Source: Ideonella azotifigens
GTDB taxonomy: Bacteria; Pseudomonadota; Gammaproteobacteria; Burkholderiales; Burkholderiaceae_C
DNA length: 56,899 bases
Assembly (NCBI RefSeq): GCF_006519715.1
Contig: NZ_VIDT01000001.1
Span: 1-56,899, forward strand
Direction of reading: 5' to 3'
The notes beneath the pieces were generated by a model. It was not told the origin of the DNA. It searched no databases and worked only from the letters and a program-made list of their open reading frames with translations. The position numbers were made by a program, and so were the translations under genes. Shown one piece after another: positions 8,717-49,429 of this stretch; within the stretch, counting starts at the first letter, position 1; every line of letters starts with the position of its first letter.

Positions 8717-9081
8717 TACTTGACGGTGAAGTTGAAGTTCCCGGTGCGCCGATGACCGTCCGCGCCGACTGCGACCCACTGCACGCTGTAGCCCCCAGGC
8801 GTCAGCGTCGGCAAGTCGACGTGCAATGTCGTGACGTCAGCCGTGTCGATGTGTGGCTTTGGGGTGGCCACATCCTTGCCCGCAGCGTCCTTCAAGGTCA
8901 CGGCGCTGAAGGACTCTTCGACCTTCTCGTTGAACGTCAGAGAGAGGTCCTTGGGCGCCGAAACCGTCGATCCAGCTGCTGGTGTCGAATTCTTCAGCGA
9001 AGCGTGCGCCTGCGCCAACTGCGGCGACAAGACCGCGCTCGCAACGGCGAGGACAAGACCGAGCATGTTGAGTTTTTTCAT
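8716..9081 (-). CDS. copC: CopC-type periplasmic copper-binding protein
   Basis: 121 residues from ATG 9081 (MKKLN). A signal peptide ends in AQA just before HASLKNSTPAAG, so the mature protein would begin with histidine, the copper ligand conserved in CopC. The Ig-like beta-sandwich shows as DLSLTFNEKVEES and PGGYSVQWVAVGADGHRRTG. No Met-rich loop is evident, which suggests a single Cu(II) site. An upstream TTG at 9096 is in frame but a less likely start. Confidence 0.9.
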   Translation of the reverse strand: MKKLNMLGLVLAVASAVLSPQLAQAHASLKNSTPAAGSTVSAPKDLSLTFNEKVEESFSAVTLKDAAGKDVATPKPHIDTADVTTLHVDLPTLTPGGYSVQWVAVGADGHRRTGNFNFTVK

Positions 9082-9121
9082 GAGGTTCACTTTCAATTCA
9101 ATGCGATGGCGCGAGAGGGAA

Positions 9122-9451
9122 TTACTTGGCGACCTGCAGCGCGGTCACGGTGAGGGCGCCGCCGACCTTTTCGGCGACGAAATGGATCTGGTCGCCCACC
9201 TTGACCTGGGTCAGCATGGCGGGATCCTTGACGCGAAACACCATCGTCATGCCTGGCATGCCGATGTTCTTCAGCTCGCCATGCTTGATGGTGAGCTTGC
9301 CGTTGTCCTTGTCGATGTTCCTGATCTCGCCCTGGGACATCTCCGCATGGGCGGCCGCCATCGGCTCGTCGTGCGCAAAGCTGGGCGCGGTGATGGTTGC
9401 AAGCGGGCCGGCAATGAGGACGGCGGCAGTGAGCTTGAGCAGTTGCTTCAT
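9122..9451 (-). CDS. CusF-like periplasmic copper-binding protein
   Basis: 109 residues. A signal peptide (MKQLLKLTAAVLIAG to SFA) is followed by an OB-fold type domain with GEIRNIDKDNGKLTIKHGEL, the metal-site block GMPGMTMVFRVKD and VGDQIHFVAEK. CusF-like proteins bind Cu(I) through His and Met residues and hand it to efflux pumps. It is the fifth gene of the operon, between the multicopper oxidase and copC. No CusA or CusB pump is seen in this window. Confidence 0.88.
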   Translation of the reverse strand: MKQLLKLTAAVLIAGPLATITAPSFAHDEPMAAAHAEMSQGEIRNIDKDNGKLTIKHGELKNIGMPGMTMVFRVKDPAMLTQVKVGDQIHFVAEKVGGALTVTALQVAK

Positions 9452-9480
9452 GGTCTTGCTTTCAAGGTTGCAGTGGGAAG

Positions 9481-10881
9481 TCATTGATGTCCTGAATGAC
9501 CGGACGGCTTGCGCACGGTCATCTCGATGGGAGCCGACTTTCCTGTCGGCTGCATGAGGTGCCCTCCAGGGCTCTCGTTGCGCTGGGTCGCGGGCATCCC
9601 GCCCTGCCATTCATAGGCCAGCGTGCCGGGTGGATGCCGGTACCAGCCAGGGTCGCTGTAGTCGCCAGGCTTCTGCTCGGCGCGGACCTTCATCACGGTG
9701 AACATGCCGCCCATCTCGACGCCGCCGAACGGACCTTCGCCACCCATCATGGGCAGCGTGTTCTCCGGAATCGGCATTTCCATGCCGCCCATGGACTGTC
9801 CCTTGTCGCCCATCGCCATGTAGTCGGGCATCAACTGGGTGATCTTCTCGGCCACGCCGCGCTGATCCACGCCAATCATCGTTGGCACGTCGTGACCCAT
9901 CGCATTCATCGTGTGGTGCGACTTGTGGCAGTGGAAGGCCCAGTCGCCAGGCTCACTGGCCACAAACTCAATCGCCCGCATCTGCCCAACCGCAACGTCG
10001 GCAGTGACCTCCGGCCAGCGGGCCTGCGGCCGCACCCATCCGCCGTCGGTGCCGGTCACCTCGAACTCGTGACCGTGCAGGTGGACGGGGTGGTTGGTCA
10101 TCGTGAGGTTGCCAACCCGGATGCGCACCTTGTCGCCTTGGCGCACGACCAGTGGGTCGATGCCCGGAAACGCACGGCTGTTGAACGTCCAGAGGTTGAA
10201 GTCCAACATCGTGTTGACGCGCGGCGTGAAGCTGCCGGGATCGATGTCGTAGGCATTCAGCAGGAACACGAAATCGCGATCGACGCGCATCGTGCCGATG
10301 TCCCGCGGATGCGTGACCCAAAAGCCCATCATGCCCATTGCCATCTGGGTCATCTCGTCGGCATGCGGGTGATACATGAAGGTGCCGGCACGGCGGGCGA
10401 CGAATTCATAGACGAAGGTCTTGCCAGGTGCAATGCCTGGCTGTGTCAGCCCGGTCACACCATCCATGCCGTTGGGCAGGCGCTGGCCATGCCAGTGGAT
10501 GCTGGTGACTTCGGGCAATCGGTTCGTCACGAAGACGCGCACGCGGTCTCCCTCCACCACCTCGATGGTGGGACCCGGCGACTGGCCGTTGTAGCCCCAC
10601 AGGTTGGCTTTCATGCCAGGGGCAATTTCTCGAACCACTGGCTCGGCAACCAGGTGGAACTCCTTGACGCCGTCTTTCATGCGCCACGGCAAGGACCAGC
10701 CATTGAGCGTGAGCACGGGATTGAACGGGCGGCCGTTGGGCGGGGCTGGCGGTGGCTGGGTCAGCGGGCTGGCTTGACTGACGGCTTCAGGCAGCATCGC
10801 CGCGCCCACTCGGCTGACAGCCGTGGCACCCACAAGGGTTGCGCCTGCAGCCTGGAAAAACGTTCTGCGGTTTGTCATCAT
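9481..10881 (-). CDS. Periplasmic multicopper oxidase (copper detoxification)
   Basis: 466 residues. The N-terminus has RRTFFQAAG, a Tat-like signal. All four copper-ligand motifs are present: HWHG near residue 138, HPHADEM near 180, HPVHLHGHEF near 275 and HCHKSHHTMNAM near 330, with the type-1 histidine and axial methionine in place. The C-terminal 100 residues are Met-rich (MAMGDKGQSMGGMEM). Such enzymes oxidise Cu(I) to the less toxic Cu(II). Two adjacent ATGs (10881 and 10878) follow GAGGGA. It is eight bases downstream of the TolC-type gene. The final motif HCHKSHH is unusual in having a histidine before the type-1 His. Confidence 0.92.
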   Translation of the reverse strand: MMTNRRTFFQAAGATLVGATAVSRVGAAMLPEAVSQASPLTQPPPAPPNGRPFNPVLTLNGWSLPWRMKDGVKEFHLVAEPVVREIAPGMKANLWGYNGQSPGPTIEVVEGDRVRVFVTNRLPEVTSIHWHGQRLPNGMDGVTGLTQPGIAPGKTFVYEFVARRAGTFMYHPHADEMTQMAMGMMGFWVTHPRDIGTMRVDRDFVFLLNAYDIDPGSFTPRVNTMLDFNLWTFNSRAFPGIDPLVVRQGDKVRIRVGNLTMTNHPVHLHGHEFEVTGTDGGWVRPQARWPEVTADVAVGQMRAIEFVASEPGDWAFHCHKSHHTMNAMGHDVPTMIGVDQRGVAEKITQLMPDYMAMGDKGQSMGGMEMPIPENTLPMMGGEGPFGGVEMGGMFTVMKVRAEQKPGDYSDPGWYRHPPGTLAYEWQGGMPATQRNESPGGHLMQPTGKSAPIEMTVRKPSGHSGHQ

Positions 10882-10889
10882 TGATTCCC

Positions 10890-12287
10890 TCAGTGCGCGC
10901 GCGGCTCGCCCGCTGCCGACTTGCTTGGCGCGCCGAAGCCGGCCAGGTTCGGCGAACGGCCGGTGAGCGCACTTTGCAGATCGGTGTCGGCGATCCAGAA
11001 GTCGCGCAGCGACTCGACTGCGCCGGTCACGCTGTTGACTTGATCGCGTGCATCGGCGAGCAGTTCGAAGACGCCCGTCAGCATCCCGTTGTAGCGAAGC
11101 ATGTTTTCATCCGAGATGCGCTTGCGCAGCGGCACCAGTTCGTCGCGGTAGTGCCTGGCCAAGTCGTAGGCCGTTCGATAGGCCGAGTACGACTCGCGAA
11201 CTTCCGAGCGGGCATTGGTTGCCACTTCGGCAGTGCGGTGGACCGCCTGCATGTACATCGCCTCCGCACGCGCGGTGCGGGTCGATCCAAAGTCGAACAG
11301 GGGCAGTTCCAGCTCGATCTCGTAGCCAGTCTGGCGGGCTTCGCCGGTCTGGCGCTTGTCGGCATAGCCGACATCAAGCACATTGATGAAGCGGGTCGTC
11401 TTGGTCAGCCCAAGCGACTTTGCCGTGGCTTCCGCATCGCGCTTGGCCATCAGGACGTCCAGGCGCTTGCTGACCGCGGTTTGCTCGGCGTCCTTGGGTT
11501 CAAGCGCCGAACTGGGCGGGTCCGGCAGCCTTTCGGGCAGCGTGAAGCCAAGACTTTCGCCAGAGAGGCCCAGCGCGCGGATCAGTCGCTCTCTTTCGGC
11601 GACCACTTGATGGCGCGCACGCGCCAGGTCGGCCGTGGCATCTGCGTAGAAGGACTGCTCACGCATCTGTTGCAGCCTGCTCAAGTTGCCCGCCTGCAGC
11701 ATGCGTCGCGCCAGTTCGCTCGATGCGTCGGCCGCAAGCTTGACTTGCTCGGCGTACCTCGCGAGTTCCTGCGCGGCCACTGCAGCAAAGAACGCCTTGC
11801 GGGCCTCTGCAGCGATGCCGACCGCTTCGAAGGCAGCCTGGTACTGCGCCTGCTCTAACTGCCGTTGTGCCACCTCGTTGGCAATGGGCATCGTCAAGAG
11901 GCCTGCGAGGTCGAACACCACCGAGCGGTCAACCTCGGTGATACCTCCGCCGGCAAGGTGCCCGAGGCTCAGCCGGGGATTGGCCAGACGACCTGCCCGC
12001 ACCCGTTCCGCTTCTGCAATGCCCAGCTCGGAGAAGCTGGCTTGAAGGCCACGGTTGTTCAGGAACGCGATCTCGACCGCCGCGTCGGCCGTCAGCGGCT
12101 GTTGGAGCAGTTCGCCAACGCGCGCGGCGGCTGAATCGACATCGGACGCCGTTCGCTGAAAGCCGACGCCTTGTCCAGTGCGCTCCCTGGTGAGCTCGGA
12201 GACTTGGCCGGCGCCGCCATCAGGCGAAAACGAAGCGCAGCCGGCCAGAGCCAGTGCTGCTGCAGCAGCAATCGTCAGCCGCATCAT
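10890..12287 (-). CDS. TolC-family outer-membrane lipoprotein of the copper operon
   Basis: 465 residues from ATG 12287, preceded by AAGGAG with good spacing. Signal peptide and lipobox LALAGCASF. The rest is a long alpha-helical, Ala/Gln-rich protein with two TolC repeats: LNNRGLQASFSELGIAEAERV, then EKLAGLL and ELPLFDFGSTRTARAEAMY. The block PLFDFG before a helix is typical of outer-membrane efflux proteins such as CusC. It overlaps the upstream gene by four bases. No inner-membrane pump is encoded beside it, so it may serve a pump elsewhere. Confidence 0.87.
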   Translation of the reverse strand: MMRLTIAAAAALALAGCASFSPDGGAGQVSELTRERTGQGVGFQRTASDVDSAAARVGELLQQPLTADAAVEIAFLNNRGLQASFSELGIAEAERVRAGRLANPRLSLGHLAGGGITEVDRSVVFDLAGLLTMPIANEVAQRQLEQAQYQAAFEAVGIAAEARKAFFAAVAAQELARYAEQVKLAADASSELARRMLQAGNLSRLQQMREQSFYADATADLARARHQVVAERERLIRALGLSGESLGFTLPERLPDPPSSALEPKDAEQTAVSKRLDVLMAKRDAEATAKSLGLTKTTRFINVLDVGYADKRQTGEARQTGYEIELELPLFDFGSTRTARAEAMYMQAVHRTAEVATNARSEVRESYSAYRTAYDLARHYRDELVPLRKRISDENMLRYNGMLTGVFELLADARDQVNSVTGAVESLRDFWIADTDLQSALTGRSPNLAGFGAPSKSAAGEPRAH

Positions 12288-12625
12288 CGCGCGTCTCCTT
12301 GCGGGTGATGCCCCCCATGGGCCGACGCCGCTGGCAGAGAGACCGTGGGCGCGGGAGATCGAGCGGCCGGTGGTGCCGCCAGGGGCATCGCAGGGGCCTC
12401 CTGGCCGGCCGCGGCGCCGTCGTCCCGCAACGCGTCGTTGAGCGCGCGCCAATCGCCGGTCTTGATGTCTTGCCAGCGCGTGTAGTCAGCGAAGGCTGAC
12501 AGGTAGCGCAGCGCCGGAGCCAAGGCTTTCGGGTCCACTGGATCGGGCGGCCTGGACTGGGCAGGCGCGAGCAGCGGCAAGCCGAGCGCGACCACAGGCG
12601 CGAGCCTGCAGAAGAAGTTGTTCAT
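12284..12625 (-). CDS. Small exported protein of the copper operon, function unknown
   Basis: 113 residues from ATG 12625 (MNNFFCRLAPVVAL). A clear signal peptide ends near LLAPAQS. The mature part has LAPALRYLSAFADYTRWQD and DWRALNDALRDD, then a Pro/Ala-rich tail ending SAHGGHHPQGDAR. The conserved YLSAFADY block suggests a real family that accompanies TolC and multicopper oxidase genes; the His-rich end could bind metal. The stop overlaps the start of the TolC-type gene (ATGA), so the two are coupled. Confidence 0.75.
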   Translation of the reverse strand: MNNFFCRLAPVVALGLPLLAPAQSRPPDPVDPKALAPALRYLSAFADYTRWQDIKTGDWRALNDALRDDGAAAGQEAPAMPLAAPPAARSPAPTVSLPAASAHGGHHPQGDAR

Positions 12626-12738
12626 GAATCGCAACCAATTGAGTCGGCGGCTCAGCAATGCGAGCCGCAAGACGCTCGGCACGACCGCTTTGCGGACGCG
12701 CGAGCCCCGTCAGGCCTCCTGAAGAGGCCCAAGGTGGG

Positions 12739-13155
12739 TCAGGTGGTTCGGGGAGGGCGCTCCTGGCCGCCCGAGAAGAAGCTGGGCAACGGCGCCGTGT
12801 AGGAAGCAAACCGCACAGCCGTGAAGCCCAACGGCTCAGCAAGCACCGGCACGGCACTCACCAGGGGTGTCAGCGAGCAGCATGCCGAACACATGTTGCA
12901 CTTGTCCGAGCCCGCATGATGATGGCGTTGCTCGCCGTGGGCATGTTCGGCATCTGCCCGGGCGTCAGACGGACCCGCCTCGTGAACCACGTGGTGCGCC
13001 ATTCCCGCGTTCGCCTCGGAGGAACCTTCGGCCATGCGGAGCTCGTTGTGCGAGCCTGCATCACCTGCCGAGCAGAGCATGGCGGCCGCCACCGCGCCCC
13101 GCAAGGGAAGCAGCACGGCCAGCAGCAGCAGGAAGCAGAGGCGAACGGTTTTCAC
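12739..13155 (-). CDS. Exported His/Cys-rich protein, DUF2946/CopL-like
   Basis: 138 residues from a GTG at 13155; a GTG at 13215 is also in frame but lies almost at the predicted transcription start. The N-terminus VKTVRLCFLLLLAVLLP is a good signal peptide. The middle is His-rich (MAHHVVHE, HAHGEQRHHHAG) and is followed by KCNMCSACCS, the Cys cluster seen in DUF2946 and CopL-like periplasmic proteins of copper loci. It is the first gene after the CueR-type promoter and probably binds copper. The exact start is uncertain because no clear Shine-Dalgarno is visible. Confidence 0.7.
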   Translation of the reverse strand: MKTVRLCFLLLLAVLLPLRGAVAAAMLCSAGDAGSHNELRMAEGSSEANAGMAHHVVHEAGPSDARADAEHAHGEQRHHHAGSDKCNMCSACCSLTPLVSAVPVLAEPLGFTAVRFASYTAPLPSFFSGGQERPPRTT

Positions 13156-13224
13156 AAAGGCTGAAAAGACTGGAAATTGGCTTTTTTGCCATTCATGGCA
13201 ATGGGTCCAACTCACCGAAACATG

Positions 13225-13255
13225 ATCCTAAACCCTCCACCTGTGGCAAGGTCAA
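13225..13255 (-). promoter_or_regulatory. CueR/MerR-type copper promoter with 19-bp spacer
   Basis: On the minus strand, -35 TTGACC (13250-13255) and -10 TAGGAT (13225-13230) are separated by exactly 19 bases, the over-long spacer that needs a MerR-family activator. The spacer holds the imperfect dyad ACCTTGCC with GGAGGGT, the half-site pattern of CueR operators. It points into the copper operon that ends at 7814. No MerR-family gene is visible in the window, so the activator must be encoded elsewhere. Confidence 0.88.
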
Positions 13256-13400
13256 GCATGGGCAAGTGGTCCAGCGGCTGCGGCCGAACCTGCTGGTATG
13301 GGGAAAGCCTACGTCGGGCCTGCGCAAGCTGGACAAGTGGCTGCGTCATCGACTGCGGGCGATCCAGCTCTGGCACTGGGCCCATCGTCTACTTGAACCG
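13255..13400 (+). pseudogene. Remnant of a group II intron reverse transcriptase/maturase
   Basis: One frame reads LRKLDKWLRHRLRAIQLWHW (about 13318-13380), which matches the conserved maturase end of group II intron proteins (a leucine/arginine block followed by a Trp). The protein before and after this block is missing, and the frame dissolves into unrelated sequence. No intron domain V could be identified. It marks an old insertion at the junction between the copper operon and the ICE. Confidence 0.45.
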
Positions 13401-13494
13401 ACTTGGCGCCCCCCAGACTCTCCTGACCTCAAACTCCCGAGCCGCCCGGTGCGGACCCGTAGGCCGGGTGGTGTGGCAGGGGCGCCGAAAAAAC

Positions 13495-13519
13495 AAAGCC
13501 CGCGACATGCGCGGGCTTT
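13495..13519 (-). terminator. Strong hairpin terminator, minus strand
   Basis: AAAGCCCGCG (13495-13504) pairs perfectly with CGCGGGCTTT (13510-13519) over a 5-base loop. On the minus strand it is followed by TGTTTTTT, a T-run, so it ends a leftward transcript. It stands next to a tRNA-end-like sequence, as terminators often do after tRNA genes. Confidence 0.7.
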
Positions 13520-13522
13520 GAC

Positions 13523-13545
13523 TGGCGGAGGGAGTCTTTCGAACC
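13523..13545 (-). other. Candidate attachment site / tRNA 3'-end remnant
   Basis: On the minus strand the sequence runs GGTTCGAA, a short gap, then CTCCCTCCGCCA, which looks like the T-loop and acceptor end of a tRNA with encoded CCA. The T-stem does not pair, so this is not a working tRNA. It lies between a terminator and the integrase gene, where tyrosine integrases of this type leave attL. No matching copy was found near 49.4-50 kb, so the call is tentative. Confidence 0.35.
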
Positions 13546-13690
13546 GGTATCTCAGGACGTCCCACTAGATCCCGACACCTCATCTAGGCCATTGATTTCA
13601 TTTGATTTTTCTTCCACTCATGTCCATAGTGATTTCATGACGTCTTGTCAAAGCGCGGCGCGCTCTGTAGGTACATCTGTAGGTAGAGAA

Positions 13691-14929
13691 ATGACCAGCC
13701 CAATACACCGACTGTCGGCACGCGCCGTTCAGAGTCAGGCCGAACCTGGGTACTACGCCGACGGCGCCGGGCTCTATCTGCAGGTCAAATTGACCGCGAA
13801 GAACACCGCTGTGACGCGGTCATGGCTGTTCCGTTACAGCCATAGCCAGCGTGCGCGATGGATGGGCCTTGGTTCGGCTCGTGACGTCAGCTTGGCGCAG
13901 GCACGACAACAGGCTGCCGATTGCAGGCGCCTTTTGGCACAGGGCAAGGATCCCATTGACGAGCGCAATGGGGAACGCACTCTCCTGCTTGTCAAAAAGC
14001 AGCGCGCAATGAGCTTCGACAAATGCGCCGAGGCCTACATCGCCGCGCATCGTGATGCGTGGAGGAACGCCAAACATGCGGCGCAATGGGAAAGCACACT
14101 TCGGCTTCACGCGAGCCCTGTGATCGGGAAGTTGCCAATCCACGAAGTCGAGTTGCGGCACCTACTGTTGATCCTTGAACCGATTTGGCGAGATCGCACG
14201 GAGACCGCTTCACGTGTGAGGGGCCGCATCGAGTCCATATTGGATTGGGCGACGGTTCGTCAGTTGCGGCACGGCGACAACCCTGCACGCTGGCGCGGGC
14301 ACTTGGACCAACTGCTGCCAGCACCAACCAAAGTCAAAAAGGTCGAGCATCACGCGGCCATACCCTTCACGGGCATGCTCGACTTCATGCAGAAGCTCGC
14401 AGGACAAGAAGGCACCGGCGCACGCGCCCTCACCTTCTTGATCCTCACCGCAGCGCGCTCGGGTGAAGTCCGTGGCGCGACCAGCGGCGAAATTGACCCT
14501 CAGACCCGCGTTTGGAACATCCCGGCCACGCGGATGAAGGCGGGGCGCGAACACAGAGTGCCACTATCGGACGCGGCCTGGAGGCTCTTGCCAGACCCAC
14601 TGCCGCAAGATTCCACCGTCCTGCTCTTCCCCTCGCCCCGTGGAGAGCAACTCTCGGACATGACTCTGACCGCGGTGATGCGACGCATGCAGGTTGGCGC
14701 GGTTCCGCATGGGTTTCGTTCGACCTTCCGTGACTGGTGCGCGGAAGCTACCGACGTGTCCCGCGAGGTCGCCGAAATGGCACTCGCACACGCAATCGGT
14801 GACAAGGTTGAAGCAGCATATCGCCGAGGCGATCTGTTTGAAAAGCGGCGAAAGCTCATGGACGAGTGGGCACACCACTGCTCCAGCAAGCCAAGCCGGC
14901 TCAAGTCGACGGTATCGACCAACGGCTGA
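13691..14929 (+). CDS. Tyrosine-type integrase (P4/DUF4102-like) of the ICE
   Basis: 412 residues from ATG 13691. The N-terminal arm-binding part (DGAGLYLQVKL, WLFRYSHSQRARWMGLGSA) is followed by a core-binding domain and the catalytic domain. The catalytic residues are visible: Arg in TAARSGEVRGAT, HGFRSTFRDWCAE with the H-x-x-R pair, the second His in ALAHAIGD and the nucleophile Tyr in VEAAYRRGDLFEKR. It should integrate and excise the element at a tRNA-like site. It opens the mobile element and reads inward, and AlpA lies 300 bp downstream. Codon use is less GC-biased than in the backbone genes. Confidence 0.93.
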   Translation: MTSPIHRLSARAVQSQAEPGYYADGAGLYLQVKLTAKNTAVTRSWLFRYSHSQRARWMGLGSARDVSLAQARQQAADCRRLLAQGKDPIDERNGERTLLLVKKQRAMSFDKCAEAYIAAHRDAWRNAKHAAQWESTLRLHASPVIGKLPIHEVELRHLLLILEPIWRDRTETASRVRGRIESILDWATVRQLRHGDNPARWRGHLDQLLPAPTKVKKVEHHAAIPFTGMLDFMQKLAGQEGTGARALTFLILTAARSGEVRGATSGEIDPQTRVWNIPATRMKAGREHRVPLSDAAWRLLPDPLPQDSTVLLFPSPRGEQLSDMTLTAVMRRMQVGAVPHGFRSTFRDWCAEATDVSREVAEMALAHAIGDKVEAAYRRGDLFEKRRKLMDEWAHHCSSKPSRLKSTVSTNG

Positions 14930-39130: not shown

Positions 39131-40315
39131 AAGGCAACGCTGAACAAGGTCGAATTTGGCGCGGGGTTTGCATGTGTCGAGACAGCACAGACGAGCAGGT
39201 GAAGATGAAGCAGCAGACCCTCGCGATGGCAGCCGATCAAGGCCAAGGATTCGAGCAGCACCGAAAGCCGACCTGGCGCGATATCTTCCTGGCGACCATG
39301 GAGGAGATCGTGCCTTGGTCGGCGCTGTGCGAGGTCATTGAGCCTCACTATCCCAAGGCTGGCAACGGCCGCCCGCCGGTCGGGCTGGAACGCATGCTGA
39401 GGATGTACTTCGTGCAGCACTGGTTCTACCTGGCAGACGAAGCCTGCGAGGAGGCGCTGCTGGACAGCACGGCGCTGCGGCGCTTCGTGGGCATCGACCT
39501 CGGGCGTGAACGCGTGCCCGACGGCACCACGCTGCTGAAGTTCCGCCGCCTGCTGGAGACGCACAAGCTGGGCGAAGCGCTGTTTGCCAAGGTGAGAGAA
39601 GTCCTGCAAACGCGAGGCTTGAAGGTGGGCACGGGCACCATCGTGGATGCCACCATCATCGGAGCGCCCAGTTCGACCAAGAACGCCGACAAGAAGCGCG
39701 ACCCGGACATGCACCAGACGCGCAAGGGCCAGCAGTGGTACAACGGCCAAGAAGATGCACATTGGCGTGGACAGCCGCACCGGGCTTGCACACAGCGCCG
39801 TGGTGACGGCAGCCAACGTGCACGACAAACATCCGCTGCCCAATCTGCTGCACGGCAACGAACAGCGTGTGTATGGCGACAGCGCCTATGCCAGCCAGAA
39901 GGCGCTGATCCAGACCAAGGCCCCGAAGGCCAAGGACTTCACCAACCAGCGCGTGCGCAAGGCCGGCGAAAATCGATGAGGTCGAGCGCTCGAAGAACCG
40001 CAGCAAATCCAAGGTCCGCGCCCATGTGGAACACGTCTTTGCCGTGGTCAAGCGGCTGTGGGGCTTTGCCAAGGTGCGCTACCGAGAGCTTGCCAAGAAC
40101 GCCACACGCGCCTTCGTAGTCCTGGGTCTGGCCAACATCTACTTGGCGCGGCAGCGTCTGGTGGCATGAGCGCGTCCGCAGTGGGCGCCATGGGCCCCTG
40201 AGGACCCCGAGCGGAGCCTCAGGCGTCCTCAAAGCGTGATTCGCCGGCCTCATCTCGCAAGCCGAAATCGGCGGGCGGAGCTTGTTGAAATTCATGGCTT
40301 GTTCAGCGTAACCTT
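39131..40315 (+). mobile_element. IS5-family insertion sequence, about 1.19 kb
   Basis: The ends carry 18-bp inverted repeats: AAGGCAACGCTGAACAAG (39131-39148) and, on the other strand, AAGGTTACGCTGAACAAG (40298-40315), 16 of 18 identical. Between them lies one transposase gene, now frameshifted. The length fits the IS5 family. The flanks show no clear target duplication, which suggests a deletion next to the element after insertion. It separates the DUF1173 end of the transfer operon from the truncated genes at 40324-41484. Confidence 0.82.
39205..40169 (+). pseudogene. IS5-family transposase with two frameshifts
   Basis: From ATG 39205 the protein reads RKPTWRDIFLATMEEIVPWS, then VGLERMLRMYFVQHWFYLAD and [17 protein letters not shown]. 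Near 39750 one extra base breaks the frame within QQWYNG; the next frame continues [20 protein letters not shown] and [13 protein letters not shown] second extra base near 39972 (in GGCGAAAATCG) moves the end, EVERSKNRSKSKVRAHVEHV to RQRLVA, into a third frame. The DDE residues are all still encoded, so the decay is recent. Confidence 0.9.
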
Positions 40316-41505: not shown

Positions 41506-42480
41506 TCATCTCTGATGCACTTGCTTTTCTGGCTTGGGCCGATCGAAGTCTTTAGGAGCGGCACGTCCCTGCCCTGGTTGCTTCCTCCCGCTCATCTCCT
41601 CCACATACTTGGCGATCGACACCGCCAAACCTCGATCAGATCTGTCGTCTGACGCAGCCAGCGCTCGCGAAATCTCCACCCACGCACCGATCACCGTCTC
41701 ACGGCGGACCATCGCCTTGGCACCATCATTCTCGGTCGGCCGGTTCATGCGCAACCTCCCTTCTTCCTTCGCCTTGATGCGCCAGAGCGGGTCATAGCTG
41801 CGCGCCTGTCCGCGGGTTGCCTGCCTCGTGGCCTCGGCGTCAATGCCATGGCCTCGCAGCTTCTCCGCAAACGTCTCCCGCCAGCGATGCAGGTCGGCCT
41901 TTCGCGGATTCAGCCGCTTGCCTTGCCTGGACTCGGCCCGCACGCTGATGTGAACGTGGGGATTGGCCTGGTGGTCGTGCAGCACCATCACGTACTTGTG
42001 ATCCGCCAGCTCGTCCTGCGCAAACTCTCGCGCTGCGCGCTGGACGGTCAGCGGGTCGGTGCCGCGGGGCATCGACAGCATGATGTTGAAGGCCTCGCGC
42101 CGGTGTCCGGGCTCGGCGTCATCGGGAATCAGAGAACCACCAAAGCGCCACTCGTCAGCCAGATCCCGCAAGGTGTCATTGCCTCGCATCGTCTCGCCTC
42201 GTTGATCCTCGATCTCCAGCCGGCCGTTCTTGCTGATATATCGGAAGTGCGCAACGATCGCCCGCATGCCACGTCCGCCGCCAGTGACCTTGACCATCAC
42301 CTGCGGCGCTCGACGAACTACCGTCGCCTCGATGCGCCTTCGGATGGCCGCAGCACGTGAACGAGCAGCGTCGCCAGTCAGCCTTGGCTGCGGCTTTGCG
42401 CCGACCATCCGGTTGCCGGGATAGAACAGCCGGTCACCCCAGGTGATCAACACACCATCGATGTTGTGACGTTGCGCCAC
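41506..42480 (-). CDS. Relaxase/mobilisation nuclease (VirD2-like)
   Basis: 324 residues from a GTG at 42480, with AAAGGA nine bases upstream. The central domain has VMVKVTGGGRGMRAIVAHFR, YISKNGRLEIEDQRGE and the metal-binding motif VMVLHDHQANPHVHISVR, with the HxH of MOB-type relaxases. The C-terminus is charged (YVEEMSGRKQPGQGRAA). It would cut one strand at oriT and lead it into the VirD4 channel. No helicase or primase domain is present. The MOB subclass is uncertain. Confidence 0.85.
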   Translation of the reverse strand: MAQRHNIDGVLITWGDRLFYPGNRMVGAKPQPRLTGDAARSRAAAIRRRIEATVVRRAPQVMVKVTGGGRGMRAIVAHFRYISKNGRLEIEDQRGETMRGNDTLRDLADEWRFGGSLIPDDAEPGHRREAFNIMLSMPRGTDPLTVQRAAREFAQDELADHKYVMVLHDHQANPHVHISVRAESRQGKRLNPRKADLHRWRETFAEKLRGHGIDAEATRQATRGQARSYDPLWRIKAKEEGRLRMNRPTENDGAKAMVRRETVIGAWVEISRALAASDDRSDRGLAVSIAKYVEEMSGRKQPGQGRAAPKDFDRPKPEKQVHQR

Positions 42481-42495: not shown

Positions 42496-43077
42496 TCACG
42501 AGGCCGCTTGGCCCACGGATCGGGCGCTGCGACCACAAGGCTGCAAATCCGCTAACACGCGAGATACCAACGCGAGGTGCCGGCGCACGTCGCCCGCCAC
42601 CGTGTCCAACATGGCCCGATACGGCCTGGCCGGTTCGACGTCTGCAGTGCGAAGCAGTGCCGTCAGGCGGTGGATGTTGCGGCTGAGATTCGACAGCTCT
42701 GCGTTGGACGCCGTCAGCACAGCGATGCATTCGCTTCGGCCAGGCCCCGTCCCGCCGCCAGCAAGCGCCGGTACACCGGCCACCAAACCCGCCACATAGG
42801 CGCCCGGCGACAGGCCGGCCTGTCGCGCTGCCGCCAGCGTCTCGCGCATGGCCTCCTTGCTCATGCGCAACGAGAGGCGCACGCGGTCGGATGGGGCCGC
42901 AAACGAACCGGCTGCCGTGCCGTGCGAGGCACTCAGCTCAGCGCCACCAATCGCCGCAACCACAGCCTCGCGAACCAGCCGGGACGGCGAGACGCCGTGG
43001 GCACGCGCCCGCTCAAACAGCGCAGCCTTCAGGCCAAACAAGTCGACGCTGATTCGATCCCTTGAGGAGGAGGTCAT
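42496..43077 (-). CDS. MobC-like relaxosome accessory protein
   Basis: 193 residues from ATG 43077, with GGAGAA upstream. An N-terminal ribbon-helix-helix-like region (ISVDLFGLKAALFERARAHG then VSPSRLVREAVVAA) is followed by RVRLSLRMSKEAMRETLAAA and a MobC-like C-terminus (SNAELSNLSRNIHRLTALLR). Such proteins help the relaxase bind and melt oriT. It is upstream of the relaxase and faces the repeat-rich region. Confidence 0.75.
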   Translation of the reverse strand: MTSSSRDRISVDLFGLKAALFERARAHGVSPSRLVREAVVAAIGGAELSASHGTAAGSFAAPSDRVRLSLRMSKEAMRETLAAARQAGLSPGAYVAGLVAGVPALAGGGTGPGRSECIAVLTASNAELSNLSRNIHRLTALLRTADVEPARPYRAMLDTVAGDVRRHLALVSRVLADLQPCGRSARSVGQAAS

Positions 43078-43105
43078 GACCGGGTTCTCCGAGCTGGGTT
43101 GCACC

Positions 43106-43121
43106 ACACGCGTGAGCGTGT
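43106..43121. repeat. Hairpin in the mob-stb intergenic region
   Basis: ACACGC (43106-43111), loop GTGA, GCGTGT (43116-43121), a perfect 6-bp stem. It is one of two hairpins in the putative oriT region, near the MobC promoter. Confidence 0.5.
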
Positions 43122-43220
43122 CCGACATCGGCGCCACCGCGCCTATCTCTGCACTCACCTTGGAACCCAGTATCGGCCTCGAACGATGCAGCTGGTCTGC
43201 GAGATTCGGGCCGGAATCGT

Positions 43221-43245
43221 GCCCGCCACTCACCGGCTGGCGGGC
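43221..43245. repeat. Perfect 8-bp inverted repeat, candidate oriT element
   Basis: GCCCGCCA (43221-43228) and TGGCGGGC (43238-43245) around a 9-base loop. It lies directly before the first GAGAC repeat. Relaxases often bind such an arm next to nic. No known nic core was recognised. Confidence 0.55.
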
Positions 43246-43252
43246 CGATCAT

Positions 43253-43405
43253 GAGACGAATGAACCGGCACCGAGACCGAACCGAGACGAAACCGGGATG
43301 ACTGAGACAGCAGTGAGACAGATGCGAAACACAGCCGGTACGGCAATGAGACGGGTGAGACGCCACCGAGACAAAAAGCGAATCGGAACCGGATCAAACC
43401 GAATC
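43253..43405. repeat. Helically phased GAGAC repeat array (StbA-type binding region?)
   Basis: GAGAC occurs on the plus strand at 43253, 43273, 43284, 43304, 43315, 43348, 43357 and 43368. Steps are 20, 11, 20, 11, 33, 9 and 11, near-multiples of a helical turn. Weaker copies fill several gaps in the same phase: GAAAC at 43326, and GAATC, GGATC and GAATC at 43380-43405. In plasmid R388, StbA binds direct repeats of 11-bp period between oriT and stbA. The location here, just upstream of a StbA-like gene, is equivalent. Confidence 0.75.
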
Positions 43406-43415
43406 GAAAGCGCAC

Positions 43416-43865
43416 ATGAACGACCCCGATCCGAACCACCACGACGGCACGCAGTTGGCGCCCAGACGCCCGCCAGGCCGCGGTTCGCGCAAGGCCCGCG
43501 CCTACGCCGCCGAGATGGCACGGCTTCAAGCCTTGGACTACACGCTGGACGCCATCTGCGAGGCCTTGGCGGACATTGGGGTCACGGTCAGCAGGAGCAC
43601 GGTGCACCGAGAGCTGGCCAGGCGTAAAGCGATGGCTACATCGACGCACGCGATACCCGCCTGTGCCGATGCCGATACGTCTCCGCGTCAGCCTGCAAGC
43701 GGTGACGGTCTCTCCCGTAGGCCTGCACCGTCGCCTCCGGCCGCAAGTGCCCCGCCAAACCGCACCGTTGATCAACGCGGCAAGGACATTGCCGAGACCT
43801 TCATGCGCGGCCACATCACCAACCCCCTGATCCGCGCCAGGCAGCGCAACGAGGAGCAATCATGA
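43416..43865 (+). CDS. StbA-like DNA-binding protein
   Basis: 149 residues. Basic N-terminus (APRRPPGRGSRKARAYAAEM), then a helix-turn-helix-like LDYTLDAICEALADIGVTVS with RSTVHRELARRK, then a Pro/Ala-rich linker and a short helical end. It is upstream of a StbB-type ATPase and overlaps it by four bases, and it lies ten bases downstream of a phased repeat array. This is the layout of the R388 stbABC operon, where StbA binds upstream repeats to secure plasmid inheritance and tune transfer. The name is based on context and the helix-turn-helix. Confidence 0.65.
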   Translation: MNDPDPNHHDGTQLAPRRPPGRGSRKARAYAAEMARLQALDYTLDAICEALADIGVTVSRSTVHRELARRKAMATSTHAIPACADADTSPRQPASGDGLSRRPAPSPPAASAPPNRTVDQRGKDIAETFMRGHITNPLIRARQRNEEQS

Positions 43866-44611
43866 AACTCGCGGTCATCAACTTCTCCGGCAACGTCGGC
43901 AAGACCACGGTGGCCCGGCACCTGCTGCTGCCTCGTCTGCCGGGCGCCGAGTACGTGGCGGTCGAGAGCATCAACGCGGACGAGGGCCAGGGGCAGGCCT
44001 TGCGCGGGCGCCAGTTCGGCGAGCTGCAGGAGTACCTGCAGACCGTCGACAGCCTGGTGGTCGACATCGGCGCCAGCAATGTCGAGGACTTCCTGAACCT
44101 GATGCAGCGCTACCGCGGCAGCCAGGAGGATTTCGACTGCTTTGTCGTGCCCACGGTGCCACCGCTCAAGCAACAGCAGGACACCATCGCCACCCTGGCC
44201 GAGCTGGCCCGCCTCGGCGTGCCGGCCTCCCGCATGAAGGTCGTCTTCAACATGCTGGAACACGACGCCGAGCTGACCCAGTCCTTCGAGCCGCTGCTTG
44301 CCTTCCTGGCCAAGAAACCGGTCGCGCAGGCCAACCCGGCCTGCCGACTGGGCGCAAACGAGCTCTATGCGCGCATCCGAGGAACCGGTGTCGACCTGGC
44401 GGAGCTGGCCCGCGACGAGACCGACTACAAGGGACTGATCGCCCGTGCCAAGGACACCGCAGAGAAACTTGCCCTGGCACAGAAGCTCGCCACCCGGCGC
44501 CTGGCCTGCGGCGTGGTGCCTGAGCTGGACGCCTGCTTCGCAGCCCTGGCGCTGAGACTGGGATCCGAGGCAGAGCGTAGCCCCCGGCCGTCCTCCAGGA
44601 AGGCCGCGTGA
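43862..44611 (+). CDS. stbB: StbB-like ATPase
   Basis: 249 residues. A deviant ParA-type P-loop, FSGNVGKTTVARHLLLPRL, begins the protein; then SLVVDIGASNVEDFLNLM, FVVPTVPPLKQQQDTIATLA and VVFNMLEHD. These blocks are typical of StbB of IncW/N-like plasmids, which affects conjugation and maintenance with StbA. It overlaps both neighbours by four bases. Confidence 0.82.
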   Translation: MKLAVINFSGNVGKTTVARHLLLPRLPGAEYVAVESINADEGQGQALRGRQFGELQEYLQTVDSLVVDIGASNVEDFLNLMQRYRGSQEDFDCFVVPTVPPLKQQQDTIATLAELARLGVPASRMKVVFNMLEHDAELTQSFEPLLAFLAKKPVAQANPACRLGANELYARIRGTGVDLAELARDETDYKGLIARAKDTAEKLALAQKLATRRLACGVVPELDACFAALALRLGSEAERSPRPSSRKAA

Positions 44612-45066
44612 GCGAGCTCAGCAGCGCCCGCGAAGCGCTGATTGCCGAGGCGATCGGTGAGGCTGGGAGGCTGATCGAACGCCTGGAGGCGCTTGCGCCA
44701 GCACTGGACGCGAACCGCCAGGCCCTGGTCCAGTCCGGCCAGGCCATCGCTGGCCAGTTGGCCGCGTTCGAGACCCGGATGGCCGCCATCACGGAAAACG
44801 CCAAGCTGCAGGCGGTCAGGCACATCGCCCGCCGCACCGACGAGATGGCAGCGCGTACGCTGACTGCGCAAACCCGGGCCATGGAGGAGGCGGCTCTGGC
44901 GATGTTCAGGAGCGAGCTGGGCCCTGCCCTGCAGCGCCTATCAGCACAGCAACAACCTCCCGGCAAGCACGCCGGCCCCTTCGCGCGCTGGCAAACGCAC
45001 GCGGCGACGGCTGTGGTGACCTCTGCCCTCACCTGGGCGATGGCGGCATGGCTGTGGGCTCGGTGA
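44608..45066 (+). CDS. StbC-like membrane-anchored coiled-coil protein
   Basis: 152 residues. A long helical region (ALIAEAIGEAGRLIERLEAL then ARRTDEMAARTLTAQTRAME) is followed by a C-terminal membrane helix (AATAVVTSALTWAMAAWLWA). The third gene of the stb operon in R388 (StbC) has unknown function; this protein occupies that slot. It may anchor StbB or the element DNA to the membrane. Confidence 0.6.
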   Translation: MSELSSAREALIAEAIGEAGRLIERLEALAPALDANRQALVQSGQAIAGQLAAFETRMAAITENAKLQAVRHIARRTDEMAARTLTAQTRAMEEAALAMFRSELGPALQRLSAQQQPPGKHAGPFARWQTHAATAVVTSALTWAMAAWLWAR

Positions 45067-45159: not shown

Positions 45160-45438
45160 ATGCGCTCAACACAGCAGTTCAGCATCACGCTGCCCAACGA
45201 GATGGCCGACGCCGTGCGCGCCAAGGTGGCCTCGGGCGAGTACGCCACGGAGAGCGAAGTGATCCGCGACGGTCTGCGTACCCTGCTCGCGCGAGATCGG
45301 GCGGTCGAGGACTGGTTGCGCAAGGATGTCGCCACCGCCTACGACGCACTGAAGGCCGACTCGTCACGTGCGGTCGGGGTCAACGCCGTCAAGGCGCGAC
45401 TGGCAGCGGCGCACAAGAAGGTATCGGCGAAGGCCTGA
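45160..45438 (+). CDS. parD: ParD-family antitoxin
   Basis: 92 residues. The ribbon-helix-helix reads STQQFSITLPNEMADAVRAK, then SGEYATESEVIRDGLRTLLA, followed by the toxin-binding tail AVEDWLRKDVATAYDALKAD. It neutralises ParE and represses the operon at the palindrome upstream. Confidence 0.92.
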   Translation: MRSTQQFSITLPNEMADAVRAKVASGEYATESEVIRDGLRTLLARDRAVEDWLRKDVATAYDALKADSSRAVGVNAVKARLAAAHKKVSAKA

Positions 45439-45446
45439 GGCCGCAT

Positions 45447-45758
45447 TTGGTCGTCTTCGCCCCCGAGGCGAGCGACCAGCTCGAAGCGCTGTTCCTGTAC
45501 ATCGCGGAACACGCCTCGCCGACCACAGCACAGCGCTACACGGATGCGGTCGTCTCGACCTGCGAAGGGCTCGCGGTGTTCCCTCAACGCGGTGTGTCAC
45601 GCGAGGACATCCGCACAGGCCTGCGGCTCACGCATCACAGGGGGCGCACCGTGATCGCCTACACCGTCGACGATGAAGCCAGGACCGTGTCCATCGTCGG
45701 CTTGTTCCATGGCAGACAGGACCACGAAGGCGCTTTGACGGAGCGTTGGGACGATTGA
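45447..45758 (+). CDS. parE: ParE-family toxin
   Basis: 103 residues from a TTG at 45447, with TGAGG upstream; no ATG is available in the frame, so the unusual start limits toxin synthesis. Family marks: FAPEASDQLEALFLYIAEHA, RYTDAVVSTCEGLAVFPQRG, GLRLTHHRGRTVIAYTVDDE and VSIVGLFHGRQDHE. ParE toxins poison gyrase. The gene starts eight bases after parD. Confidence 0.9.
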   Translation: MVVFAPEASDQLEALFLYIAEHASPTTAQRYTDAVVSTCEGLAVFPQRGVSREDIRTGLRLTHHRGRTVIAYTVDDEARTVSIVGLFHGRQDHEGALTERWDD

Positions 45759-46258: not shown

Positions 46259-47134
46259 TCAGCCCTTGAGCTTGCGCATCTCCTCGGCCAGCATCCACAG
46301 CGCACGGTTGAGGCTCACGCCGCGGTCGATGCTGCCCACCGGCCGGGTCTGCAGGCGGCGCCCTTGGGCGCTGCGGCCGGGCTGCCCGCCGCGGATCACG
46401 TTCTCCTGCACCCGCTGGAACGTGATCCACAGGCTGTGGCCGATGTCCTCGGGCCGGCGCGCTTCAATCAGCTGCTCCGCCGTGACAGGCGCAGGACGCT
46501 GCACACCGGCCTCGTCCGGACCTCGCTCACCGAAACGCAGTGCCAGGGCGGCGTTTGCAAAGGCGATCTGCTCGGGCGGCCGCAGCTGCAGCGCCTTCAT
46601 CGCCTCGGTGTGCTCGGTCACCGCCTCGAACTCGTCGAGCACTCGGAAGGCGCCTTCGATCACTTCGCCCTGGATGTTGCCTTTGTGCGGGATGCGGATG
46701 TCGTCCACCACATCGCCCACGATCAGGCCGTTGCAGCAGACGAAGCGAAACATTCCCGCGAGCATCTGGTACGAGCTGGCGCCATCGTGGCTGTTGATCA
46801 GGATGATCTCGTTGGCCTCGGCGCGGGTGCTGAGTTGACCGCTGCCGTCACGATGGTGGCGCATGCGGATCATGTGCTTGGTGAATTCGCTCTTGCCTTC
46901 GATGCGGCTCTTGCCCTGCGCCACCATGAAGGGCTCGAAGCCCTCTTTGCGCAGGCCGCGCAGCACGTCGATGGTGGGGATGTAGGTGTAGCGCTCGGAG
47001 CGGCTGCCATGCTTGCCCTGGGCGAAGATGGACGGCGCTGCGGCGCGCATCTGGTCTTCGCTCAGTGCTTGATCGCCATGCATCACGCGGGTGTCGCGGG
47101 CAAAACGGGTGGCCAGTGTCGGGGTCGAGTACAT
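46259..47134 (-). CDS. DUF932 protein
   Basis: 291 residues. LSEDQMRAAAPSIFAQGKHG, YTYIPTIDVLRGLRKEGFEP and GKSEFTKHMIRMRHHRD are characteristic of DUF932, and so is FRFVCCNGLIVGDVVDDIRI. The family is common on plasmids and ICEs near ssb and antirestriction genes; the function is unknown. It lies in the same orientation as ssb, 89 bases downstream. Confidence 0.88.
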   Translation of the reverse strand: MYSTPTLATRFARDTRVMHGDQALSEDQMRAAAPSIFAQGKHGSRSERYTYIPTIDVLRGLRKEGFEPFMVAQGKSRIEGKSEFTKHMIRMRHHRDGSGQLSTRAEANEIILINSHDGASSYQMLAGMFRFVCCNGLIVGDVVDDIRIPHKGNIQGEVIEGAFRVLDEFEAVTEHTEAMKALQLRPPEQIAFANAALALRFGERGPDEAGVQRPAPVTAEQLIEARRPEDIGHSLWITFQRVQENVIRGGQPGRSAQGRRLQTRPVGSIDRGVSLNRALWMLAEEMRKLKG

Positions 47135-47223
47135 GATGATTTCCTTCGATCATTGAGTAAGGCACGAAGGGCGAGCGCGGTGCAGTGGCCTGTGGCCCAA
47201 CCCGCGACCCGCCGGGGAACGTT

Positions 47224-47706
47224 TCAGGCGTCGGCGTGTGCCGGCTGGCGCGCGGTGCGAGGCTTGCGGGGATTACGATTCGAGGCCGCGGTGCTGACAC
47301 GTTCGGCGCTGCGGTTGACGCCTTCGGCATCGGCGCCACCGTTGCGGCGGGCTTCGCTCTCGGCGCGGCTGTCGAGGTAGTCGATGTCCTCGGCCGTGAA
47401 CGCCATGCCGTAGACGGTCTCGCCGTCCTTCTCGAAGTTGTTGTTGCGCAGCCGGCCGACGATGTTGACGTGCGAGCCTTTGCCCAGGTACGCCGCTGCG
47501 TTCTCGGCCTGCTTGCCCCACAGCGTCCACTGGATCGCGGTGGCTTCCTCTTCGCGGGTGCCGGCTGGATCGCGGTTCGCGCGCCGGGTGTTGCTGATCG
47601 CGGTCAGCACCGCCTTGGCAACCTGGCCGTCGCGGCCGTTGACGAATTCGAGTTTGACGGCACCGGCCAGGTGCGCGTGACGCTGGATGACTTGAACGTT
47701 GGCCAT
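47224..47706 (-). CDS. ssb: Single-stranded DNA-binding protein of the ICE
   Basis: 160 residues. OB-fold blocks: NVQVIQRHAHLAGAVKLEFV, AIQWTLWGKQAENAAAYLGK, GSHVNIVGRLRNNNFEKDGE and YGMAFTAEDIDYLDS. The C-terminus is basic (NRNPRKPRTARQPAHADA) and lacks the acidic DDDIPF tip of chromosomal SSB, so it probably does not recruit the host repair partners. It would coat incoming single-stranded DNA. Confidence 0.9.
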   Translation of the reverse strand: MANVQVIQRHAHLAGAVKLEFVNGRDGQVAKAVLTAISNTRRANRDPAGTREEEATAIQWTLWGKQAENAAAYLGKGSHVNIVGRLRNNNFEKDGETVYGMAFTAEDIDYLDSRAESEARRNGGADAEGVNRSAERVSTAASNRNPRKPRTARQPAHADA

Positions 47707-47797
47707 GAGGGGCTCCTTGCAAGAACGATCAGCCGGACACCGCCCTGGTGTTCCTCAAAACTGATCCTCTCGCTCGGACTTCCTCGCTCCCGCCCAC

Positions 47798-47815
47798 GGG
47801 CGGGCGGGGGGTGGG
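47798..47815 (+). repeat. Canonical G-quadruplex motif
   Basis: Four G-tracts with one-base loops (GGG-C-GGG-C-GGGGGG-T-GGG), 90 bases upstream of the ssb start and on the strand opposite to it. Confidence 0.6.
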
Positions 47816-47820
47816 CATGG

Positions 47821-47842
47821 CCCCTTCCCTCACGGGAAGGGG
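47821..47842. repeat. 9-bp perfect hairpin
   Basis: CCCCTTCCC (47821-47829), loop TCAC, GGGAAGGGG (47834-47842). It lies directly beside the G-quadruplex motif. No T-run follows on either strand, so it is not a classic terminator. Confidence 0.6.
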
Positions 47843-48367
47843 TGGGGGATGGGTGGTGTGACCCGCAGCCGAAGCAGTGCGCCGGTTTCCCGGCCCACCG
47901 CTTGAAGATCCCCCCACAAGTCCCCCTCGCAATTCGATGGGGGCGCAGTTGGGGGGAGCGCGGTGGGACGACTGGCGCACGGGCTGCCCTCCCCTGTATC
48001 TCCACGGGAGGCGCAGCGTCGCGGCCGATGTGCCAGCTTGTCTGGCGCGGCGGTTGCAGCGAAGGCGCCCGAACGCCCACGAGCAGCGGCGCCTCTGCGG
48101 CCGACGTGCCACCAAGCGCAGCGACTGGCGCGGCGGTCGAGCCGCTGCGAACACTTCTTTGCACCCGATCTTCAGCGGCCCGGCTTCGGGCATGGCGGGT
48201 GACCGGGGTGGCGATCTGGCTGGCGCCGCATAGAGTGGAGCGCAGCGCAGCGAACTGCAAGCCGGTCAGTTCGCCAAGCAGGCCTCGTTCACGCGCAGCG
48301 TGAAGGAAACAAGGCCCGCGCGCCCCGGACACGGGAAAGGGCCGCCGTCGCCGTTCCCACCGGCCCA

Positions 48368-48486
48368 GCCGGCCTGACCGTGTTGCGTGAGAGATGGCAG
48401 CCCGTCAGGGGCGAGACGCTGAGCCCTTAACAGCGGCTCGCTGCGCAGCAGCGCAACAGCCCGCCCCCACGCAGCGGGGACACGCC
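48368..48486 (-). ncRNA. Conserved repeat copy A, candidate structured leader
   Basis: About 119 bases that recur at 49314-49429 in the same orientation. Shared blocks in order (plus strand): GCCGGCCT, TGCGTGA, a 20-base block at 48399-48418 that begins AGCCCGTCAGG, ACAGCGGCTCG, and GCGGGGACACGCC. The blocks are separated by variable bases, as in conserved RNA structure. It is upstream of the ssb operon on the minus strand. The setting resembles the radC RNA motif described upstream of DNA-related genes; identity was not tested. Confidence 0.5.
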
Positions 48487-48580
48487 CAGCGAGAGACTGT
48501 TCCCGCCACAGACGGCACGGCAGCCTCAGACGCCAGGCAGACTGCAGGCCAACGAGAGCGGACCAGGTCCGCCCAGGGCT

Positions 48581-49102
48581 TCACAAGAGCCCGCGTTCGG
48601 CAAAGCTCACTGCCGCCGCGCCTGCCACCACCAGGTGATCCAGCACCCGCACGTCCACCAGCGCCAGCGCAGCCTTCAACCCGCTGGTAACGGCTTCATC
48701 TGCACGACTGGGCTCCGCAAGCCCCGACGGATGGTTGTGCGCCAGGATCACCGCTGCCGCGTTCAGCGCCAGCGCTTCCTTGACCACCTCCCGGGGATAG
48801 ACCGACGTCTGGCTGACCGTGCCGCGGAACATCTCCTTGCAAGCCAGCACGCGATGCTGGGAGTCCAGGAAGAGGATCGCGAACACCTCGTGTTCCAGCA
48901 GCCCGATCTGCAGCGACAGGTACTCCCTGACTTCCTGCGGCGACGTCAGTTCCGGACCGCGCCGGATCCACTGCGACAGCACTTGCCGCGCCTCGTGCAG
49001 CACTTCTTCGGGCTTGGCCGCGCGGTGGTGGCCATCGGGCTCCTGCACCAGCAGCGCGGTGAACAGGCCGAACTGCGCAGACGATTGAACGGTCGAGGAC
49101 AT
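48581..49102 (-). CDS. radC: RadC-family JAB domain protein
   Basis: 173 residues from ATG 49102. The MPN/JAB metal site is complete: the conserved Glu in [20 protein letters not shown], then [37 protein letters not shown] is typical of RadC. The short form, without the N-terminal helix-hairpin-helix of chromosomal RadC, is the kind carried by ICEs and plasmids. Its activity is unknown. It heads the minus-strand block, with a conserved repeat on each side. Confidence 0.92.
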
Positions 49103-49313
49103 GGCGAGCTCCAGTCTGAGTCGGGCGGGATTGCCCGAGACCGGGACGCATCGACGCAGCGCAGCTGTCAAGGCTCGCCGACGACCGCAGGGCGCAAGCG
49201 CTCGCCACCGCGAGCGCGCAGGCCTTGACCGCGAGAACGTCGGGGCACGATGGGTCGACACGGCAACCCCCCCTCCGCACGCCACCAACACCAGCGGAAG
49301 GACCGCCGGCAAT

Positions 49314-49429
49314 GCCGGCCTCGCCGAACTGCGTGAGGGATCAAAGCCCGTCAGGGGCGAGACGTTGGCCGCAGGACAGCGGCTCGACGCCCAGCGCGCG
49401 AGCCCGGCCCAGCAAAGCGGGGACACGCC
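49314..49429 (-). ncRNA. Conserved repeat copy B upstream of radC
   Basis: About 116 bases, the second copy of the element at 48368-48486. The blocks GCCGGCCT, TGCGTGA, the 20-base block at 49345-49364, ACAGCGGCTCG and GCGGGGACACGCC are identical or nearly so. It lies about 210 bases upstream of the radC start, in the position of a leader RNA. Confidence 0.5.

Follow-up and report, generated by a model that had tools for sequence, protein, structure and literature searches.

The window, by which we mean the whole 56,899-nucleotide stretch of the Ideonella azotifigens contig analysed here, contains an array of short direct repeats located between a pair of mobility genes and a three-gene stb operon that is read in the opposite direction. 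The features at this locus are as follows.

41506 to 42480, minus strand: relaxase gene, matching Pfam Relaxase (MobA/VirD2-type), with the NCBIfam MobP1 match below its cut-off.
42496 to 43077, minus strand: gene in the mobC position, a relaxosome accessory by position, with no family match.
43130 to 43143, plus strand: inverted repeat GGCGC / GCGCC adjoining the nic core, its pairing conserved in relatives.
43143 to 43153, plus strand: nic-like core CTATCTCTGCA of a predicted oriT, located by a regular expression that matched in 46 of the 63 related loci described below, including the window.
43251 to 43409, plus strand: array of 15 direct units of 11 columns each, consensus ccGAgaCgraa; predicted StbA-binding (stbDR-type) array.
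43416 to 43865, plus strand: stbA-like gene with an N-terminal helix-turn-helix, the predicted reader of the array, with recognition segment VSRSTVHRELAR.
43862 to 44611, plus strand: stbB, encoding a ParA-like ATPase, with an SGNVGKT motif in the translation and a match to NF041292 of 290.8 bits (cut-off 200).
44608 to 45066, plus strand: gene in the stbC position, with a moderately hydrophobic C-terminal stretch that is a possible membrane anchor, and no family match.

The array is therefore flanked by the oriT-like core on one side and stbA on the other, with the relaxase and mobC-position genes diverging from it on the minus strand. The stbA, stbB and stbC frames overlap end to start within 43416–45066, as in the three-gene operon of the R388 type, and StbB is firmly identified by its sequence. 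The product of the gene at 43416 had no match to the ParB family, the mark of a ParB/parS system, in Pfam or NCBIfam at E 0.001. In the stbC-position protein of the window the best 19-residue mean hydropathy was 1.31, and a C-terminal hydrophobic stretch was found in 42 of the 48 relatives with a frame in this position at a lax cut-off (mean hydropathy >1.0); the values for R388 StbC, R46 StbC and R751 TraM were stronger (2.0–2.4). The stretch suggests a membrane anchor, which would complete a chain leading from the DNA through StbA, StbB and StbC to the membrane.

Genes of the VirB4, TrbL, VirB8, CagX, TrbI and VirB11 types and a coupling-protein gene lie at lower coordinates, and a tyrosine integrase is encoded at 13592; the presence of these transfer-type genes and the integrase makes it probable that the contig carries an integrative conjugative element. 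A tRNA scan of the window found no tRNA that could serve as its integration site. Near the integrase, 4622–14929 carries genes for a histidine kinase/response regulator, CopD, a multicopper oxidase and an outer-membrane efflux protein, a set that is possibly copper-tolerance cargo, and between the transfer genes and the relaxase, at 39172–40119, there are frames that by eye resemble an interrupted IS5-type transposase. Downstream of stbC, at 45160–45758, a ParD-like antitoxin (TIGR02606 just under and Pfam ParD just over the cut-off) is followed by a reading frame that resembles a ParE-type toxin by eye. Beyond the stb operon, 46259–49426 encodes DUF932, SSB and RadC-like proteins, a usual leading-region set in conjugative elements.

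A preliminary description of this DNA had reported eight exact copies of GAGAC on the plus strand, and these were found at 43253, 43273, 43284, 43304, 43315, 43348, 43357 and 43368, with the steps it had stated (20, 11, 20, 11, 33, 9 and 11). Its chance expectation of about 0.1 copies was too low, as composition-matched shuffles contained about 1.1, but the excess over this corrected value is still clear. None of 5000 dinucleotide shuffles of 43234–43415 reached eight GAGAC (the maximum was 5, in 3 shuffles), and some 5-mer was present eight times in 1 of the 5000. Across the whole window no 5-mer exceeded eight copies in any 125-base stretch, and GTCTC, the same word on the opposite strand, was absent within 42900–43600. 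Autocorrelation, which had been proposed as a check, gave its main peak at lag 11 (z 5.7), followed by lags 42 (5.0) and 53 (4.4). Once degenerate units are counted, a chain fit resolves the array into 15 units with steps of 9, 11, 11, 11, 9, 11, 11, 11, 11, 9, 11, 12, 11 and 10 bp (mean 10.57 bp), and the span originally given, 43253–43405, is correct to within a few bases of the fitted one. When the window was scanned with the unit profile, this chain was prolonged by two weak units into stbA. No second array in the window stood above the null, the other best chains scoring at most 10.8 against maxima of 8.7–14.0 in six shuffled windows, and the pattern GAGACNNNTGAGAC was present once in the whole genome assembly, at the array. 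A consensus scan for sigma-70-like promoters and a terminator scan found nothing.

To compare this site with its relatives, we collected stb loci from 30 of the 299 genomes of the family (29 loci) and from named genome contigs (38 loci), which together with the window made 68; four further matches from the family-genome search were left out of the set. Removal of 5 duplicates left 63 loci including the window. Seventeen of these, in which the nic pattern was missing, were excluded from the period counts: 10 distant loci without the StbA motif, six with the motif, and one whose contig was cut 160 bases upstream. Among the six, L019 reads CTATCGCTGCA, a form missed by the nic pattern. No StbA start was recognised by pattern in L005, L006 and L056, for which the array end was fixed.

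The preliminary description had made its reading depend on conservation of the phase in related elements, and such conservation was observed. The lag-11 z exceeded 2 in 40 of the 46 loci, including the window, and in 20 of the 22 that remained when the set was dereplicated at 80% StbB identity. As controls, stretches of equal length were taken from the upstream side of nic, where the DNA is partly coding, and none of these 46 exceeded 2. Across loci the mean z was also raised at lag 22 (2.2) and lag 33 (1.5). The loci in which lag-11 z was not above 2 were L006, L011, L012, L016, L050 and L056, and the chain model outscored all 6 shuffles in 44 of the 46 loci, failing in L046 and L012. Ten plasmid pieces beyond the controls were also considered, with L079, which has no stbA, left out of the period test. 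In seven further plasmid stb regions the period was present in C. gilardii (z 6.5), P. citrulli (3.7) and P. amygdali (2.7), borderline in the X. hortorum plasmid (2.0), and not clear in P. fragi (1.8, from a record that is truncated at the beginning), Sulfuriferula (1.2) and X. arboricola (1.0). Plasmids matching the window relaxase belong to what we take to be group PromA; in the one of them that was examined, mobC adjoins parB/parA and the period is absent (z 0.7). In L079, a Paraburkholderia sabiae plasmid, stbB begins 68 bases after an LPD7-domain gene with no stbA before it, and StbB may work there without an adjacent StbA. A search of viral contigs found no StbA relatives.

The nic-like core of the predicted oriT occurs upstream of stbB in two forms, CTATCTCTGCA in 33 of the 46 loci and CTATCCTGCA in 13. 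The shorter form contains the MOBP nick consensus, given as (C/T)ATCCTG(C/T) in PMC3772185, and TATCCTGC is kept in 13 of the 46 loci. The window departs from this consensus, reading TATCTCTGC with one base more, like 33 of the 46 loci. The longer core is possibly a nick-site variant of this relaxase group; since the window has the longer form, its nick site is a prediction. On the 5′ side of the core, the inverted repeat was scored at whichever of four loop lengths suited it best, and 37 of 46 loci then had 5 or 6 of the 6 arm positions paired; both arms carry changes across loci, e.g. GGCGGC/GCCGCC and TGCTGG/CCAGCC. The locus thus combines an inverted repeat directly 5′ of the nick region with a nearby MobA/VirD2-type relaxase, as in an oriT of the MOBP type, and its array is adjacent to the predicted oriT and divergent from the mobility genes, as in R388.

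The spacing of the units departs from 11 bp mostly in one direction. Under the final chain model, in which short and long steps carried equal penalties, 98 of the steps off 11 bp were short (by 1–2 bp) and 10 were long over all loci, compared with 204:167 in shuffles, and after dereplication the short:long ratio was 40:5, 15 of the 19 loci having a surplus of short steps and 1 of long ones; these counts are less than independent, because the loci share descent. In six arrays from outside the set all six off-period steps were short, including the 32+20 bp gap of R388, and two of these arrays had none. The bias fits selection for units that stay near one face of the helix (about 10.5 bp per turn), in which case the occasional 9–10 bp steps would correct the drift of a strict 11-bp spacing against the ~10.5-bp helical repeat.

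The period was kept among the relatives but the word was not, as subfamilies carry different words. GAGAC was found in the window and in L062 (five exact copies), GGACC in L063 and L021, CGAGTA/TGGGT in L024 and L023, TGCACAG in L059, L065 and L066, TGCAA in L020, a CTGAACAG-like word in L045 and others, and TCG-based words in L047, L051 and L057. The StbA family, for its part, has a conserved PPG..RKA N-terminus and a helix-turn-helix with a variable last helix (VSRSTVHRE in the window). A Mantel test of the raw 5-mer spectrum of the array against this helix was not significant (r 0.06, p 0.20; partial 0.05, p 0.25), and after that null result unit profiles from the chain model were adopted in its place, for the 39 loci with a chain score of at least 36 out of the 43 with a recognised StbA start. 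Given StbB identity, the partial Mantel correlation between unit profile and recognition segment was 0.384 in 14 loci (p 0.010), 0.373 in 19 and 0.497 in 33 (both p 0.0003, the permutation floor); these p values are not fully independent of the raw 5-mer result, because the profiles were chosen after seeing it.

When StbB and the other StbA segments were controlled, the recognition segment kept 0.34–0.42 (p 0.001), while the other segments dropped to at most 0.18 with all controls, the second helix still giving p 0.03 in 19 loci. Given StbB alone, these other segments were partly correlated with the profile (second helix 0.29 in 19 loci; all three segments in 33 loci). Removal of array pairs sharing a 12-mer left partial Mantel values of 0.467–0.553 (p 0.0005), and the mean profile similarity was 0.64 for the 77 pairs with at least 70% segment identity versus 0.36 for the 94 pairs below 45%. 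These comparisons show that the word changes along with the StbA segment predicted as the recognition helix, beyond StbB relatedness. Among the loci with the VSRSTVH segment, L062 carries its five GAGAC copies and L008 three, one of them inside the analysed stretch, which in this locus starts 45 bases after nic and misses the other two. L055 is a counter-case, having the VSRSTVH segment of the window yet a CCGGA-type word instead of GAGAC. The P. citrulli plasmid, which was outside the test sets, combines segment VGWATVQREVAR with CGGGTA units; L023 and L024 have the same segment and similar units. Because its StbA looks close to that of L024 by eye, the shared word may reflect descent.

The structure of the window StbA was predicted from an alignment of the window with 28 relatives, every one of the 29 listed except L043. 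The model was weak overall (mean pLDDT 65, pTM 0.38) and confident at about residues 30–70. Its first PDB match in Foldseek was 7pc1, the DNA-binding domain of R388 StbA (probability 0.91, E 0.65, rmsd 2.0, 27% identity). With VIA-align, 7pc1 scored Z 6.3 (rmsd 8.2), about as high as phage small terminases did, so the fold by itself does not establish kinship with R388. Profile comparison of the window StbA with R388 StbA by hhalign gave E 0.00038 at a probability of 36%, and a PDB sequence search with the window protein returned nothing below E 0.1 (best E 0.18). On the basis of the model and these profiles, the link between the two StbA proteins appears to be a remote one.

We consider it likely, with a probability of roughly 0.77, that the array is an stbDR-type StbA-binding cis site of the element's own stb system, which would control the stb operon and tie maintenance to transfer. 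One StbA molecule would sit on each unit, all along a single face of the DNA, and together they would form a cooperative nucleoprotein patch that could repress or tune an stb promoter inside or beside the array. The same patch might be the platform for the ATPase StbB, and through StbB and StbC, the possible membrane anchor, the element would be tied, as reported for R388, to one of two things: stable inheritance (the role of StbA) or the transfer machinery (that of StbB). For an integrated element, a maintenance role would matter in the excised circle. In R388, loss of StbA is reported to increase both transfer and plasmid loss, and loss of StbB to abolish transfer; by analogy, our best guess is that a similar split applies to the window element.

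Alternatively, the array could be a transcriptional operator only, through which StbA autorepresses stbABC without any role in segregation or transfer. It does extend up to the start of stbA, and a chromosomally integrated element, such as the tyrosine integrase in the contig would indicate, needs little partition. However, an operator would not be expected to have as many as fifteen phased units, the site adjoins the conserved oriT-like core, and in R388 the effects of StbA on stability and transfer require the stbDRs (PMC3098194), and we regard a purely transcriptional role as unlikely. A role in oriT proper, with the array bound by the mobC-position protein or by another relaxosome accessory factor, would be in keeping with its place, which adjoins the nic-like core and separates the two divergent operons. 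Such a factor would not readily account for a word that tracks the recognition segment of StbA given StbB and the other StbA segments (the co-variation analysis was run on StbA), and we give this reading very little weight.

Iterons typically take the form of short direct repeats in phase, next to a divergent gene, and the array looks like this, but the repeats lie between nic and stbA in the relatives and upstream of stbA in R388, R46 and pWW0, and no replication initiator was matched in Pfam or NCBIfam among the ten neighbouring proteins scanned. An iteron-based, plasmid-like replication origin is accordingly a highly improbable reading. Least credible of all is chance or low-complexity drift: the local composition does yield ~1.1 GAGAC per shuffle and not 0.1, but 0 of 5000 shuffles reached eight copies and the period is conserved in 40 of 46 loci.

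A broader proposal can be made, although only tentatively and with more doubt than confidence. Conjugative elements may carry a fast-changing private address beside oriT, consisting of a conserved phased lattice (11 bp with 9–10 bp corrections) and a word that co-evolves with the recognition helix of StbA. Were this true, several elements sharing a cell could each run their own maintenance and transfer control by having different words, in a way that resembles incompatibility groups, and the StbA protein would allow its word to be deduced; words that are separate addresses would also have a bearing on which mobile elements can coexist. StbA/TraK-type proteins are a meeting point of plasmid inheritance and transfer, and at few sites is the assembly of their DNA complexes understood. 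The natural arrays, dozens of them with many words on one lattice, are a data set for decoding protein–DNA specificity, and helical phasing can be tested directly and cheaply thanks to the bias against long steps. A 2025 study in mBio reportedly describes partition proteins binding an oriT region, and it may bear on the window array. In the literature searched, which left most subscription papers outside its scope, the stb family of the window, its words and the step bias were not named, and the term stbDR was found in PMC3098194 only.

The closest known system is that of plasmid R388 (IncW), whose StbA the preliminary description had cited as a precedent with 11-bp direct repeats at the same place. 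The precedent was borne out as to the stb operon with its StbB, the oriT-like core and the 11-bp period, but the repeat unit of R388 measures 9 bp and is followed by a 2-nt spacer (PMC3098194), so that 11 bp is its period and not its length. As in the window, they lie upstream of stbA and beside oriT, with divergent mob genes and an SGxxGK-containing StbB. The lag-11 z of R388 is 6.1, the same period as in the window array, and the gap between its two sets (32+20 bp) falls short of multiples of 11, as steps in the window array do. According to PMC3098194, R388 StbA binds the stbDRs in gel shifts, and TraK of RP4, whose binding site lies in the interval from nic to traK, is a homologue of StbA. 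By contrast with the window, the R388 word is TTGCATCAT (ATGATGCAA on the stbA strand) and not GAGAC, and the two StbA proteins share 23% identity in alignment. Also according to PMC3098194, R388 has two sets of five repeats, where the window has a single run of 15 units, and extra stbDR copies at other promoters, which have no counterpart within the window; its relaxase is of the MOBF type, that of the window matching Pfam Relaxase (MobA/VirD2-type).

R46 (IncN) and pWW0 resemble the window in having an 11-bp period in the same place (lag-11 z 8.4 and 4.8), with the words TACATCA and TGCAG, respectively, unlike GAGAC. Comparing TACATCA of R46 (L073, 20300–20505) with TGATGCA of R388 (L071, 16240–16470), both on the stbA strand, we observed that the units read as if inverted relative to stbA. 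R751 (IncP-1) shares the layout of traJ, oriT and traK, and its traJ–traK interval contains a nic-like CATCCTGC in the orientation of traK, but its traK region, unlike the window, has no 11-bp period (lag-11 z 0.3). Paracidovorax citrulli pACM6 is like the window in its StbA subfamily (by eye), its nic-like TATCCTGC and its 11-bp array (z 3.7), and differs from it in the CGGGTA word and the GWATVQ recognition segment. The preliminary description had suggested that a different repeat unit might make this a new site. The word does differ from that of R388, but because words differ among subfamilies anyway, a differing word alone makes no new kind of site. The array would thus belong to a known kind, the stbDR-type site, and what would be new is a family-wide specificity code together with the phase rule.
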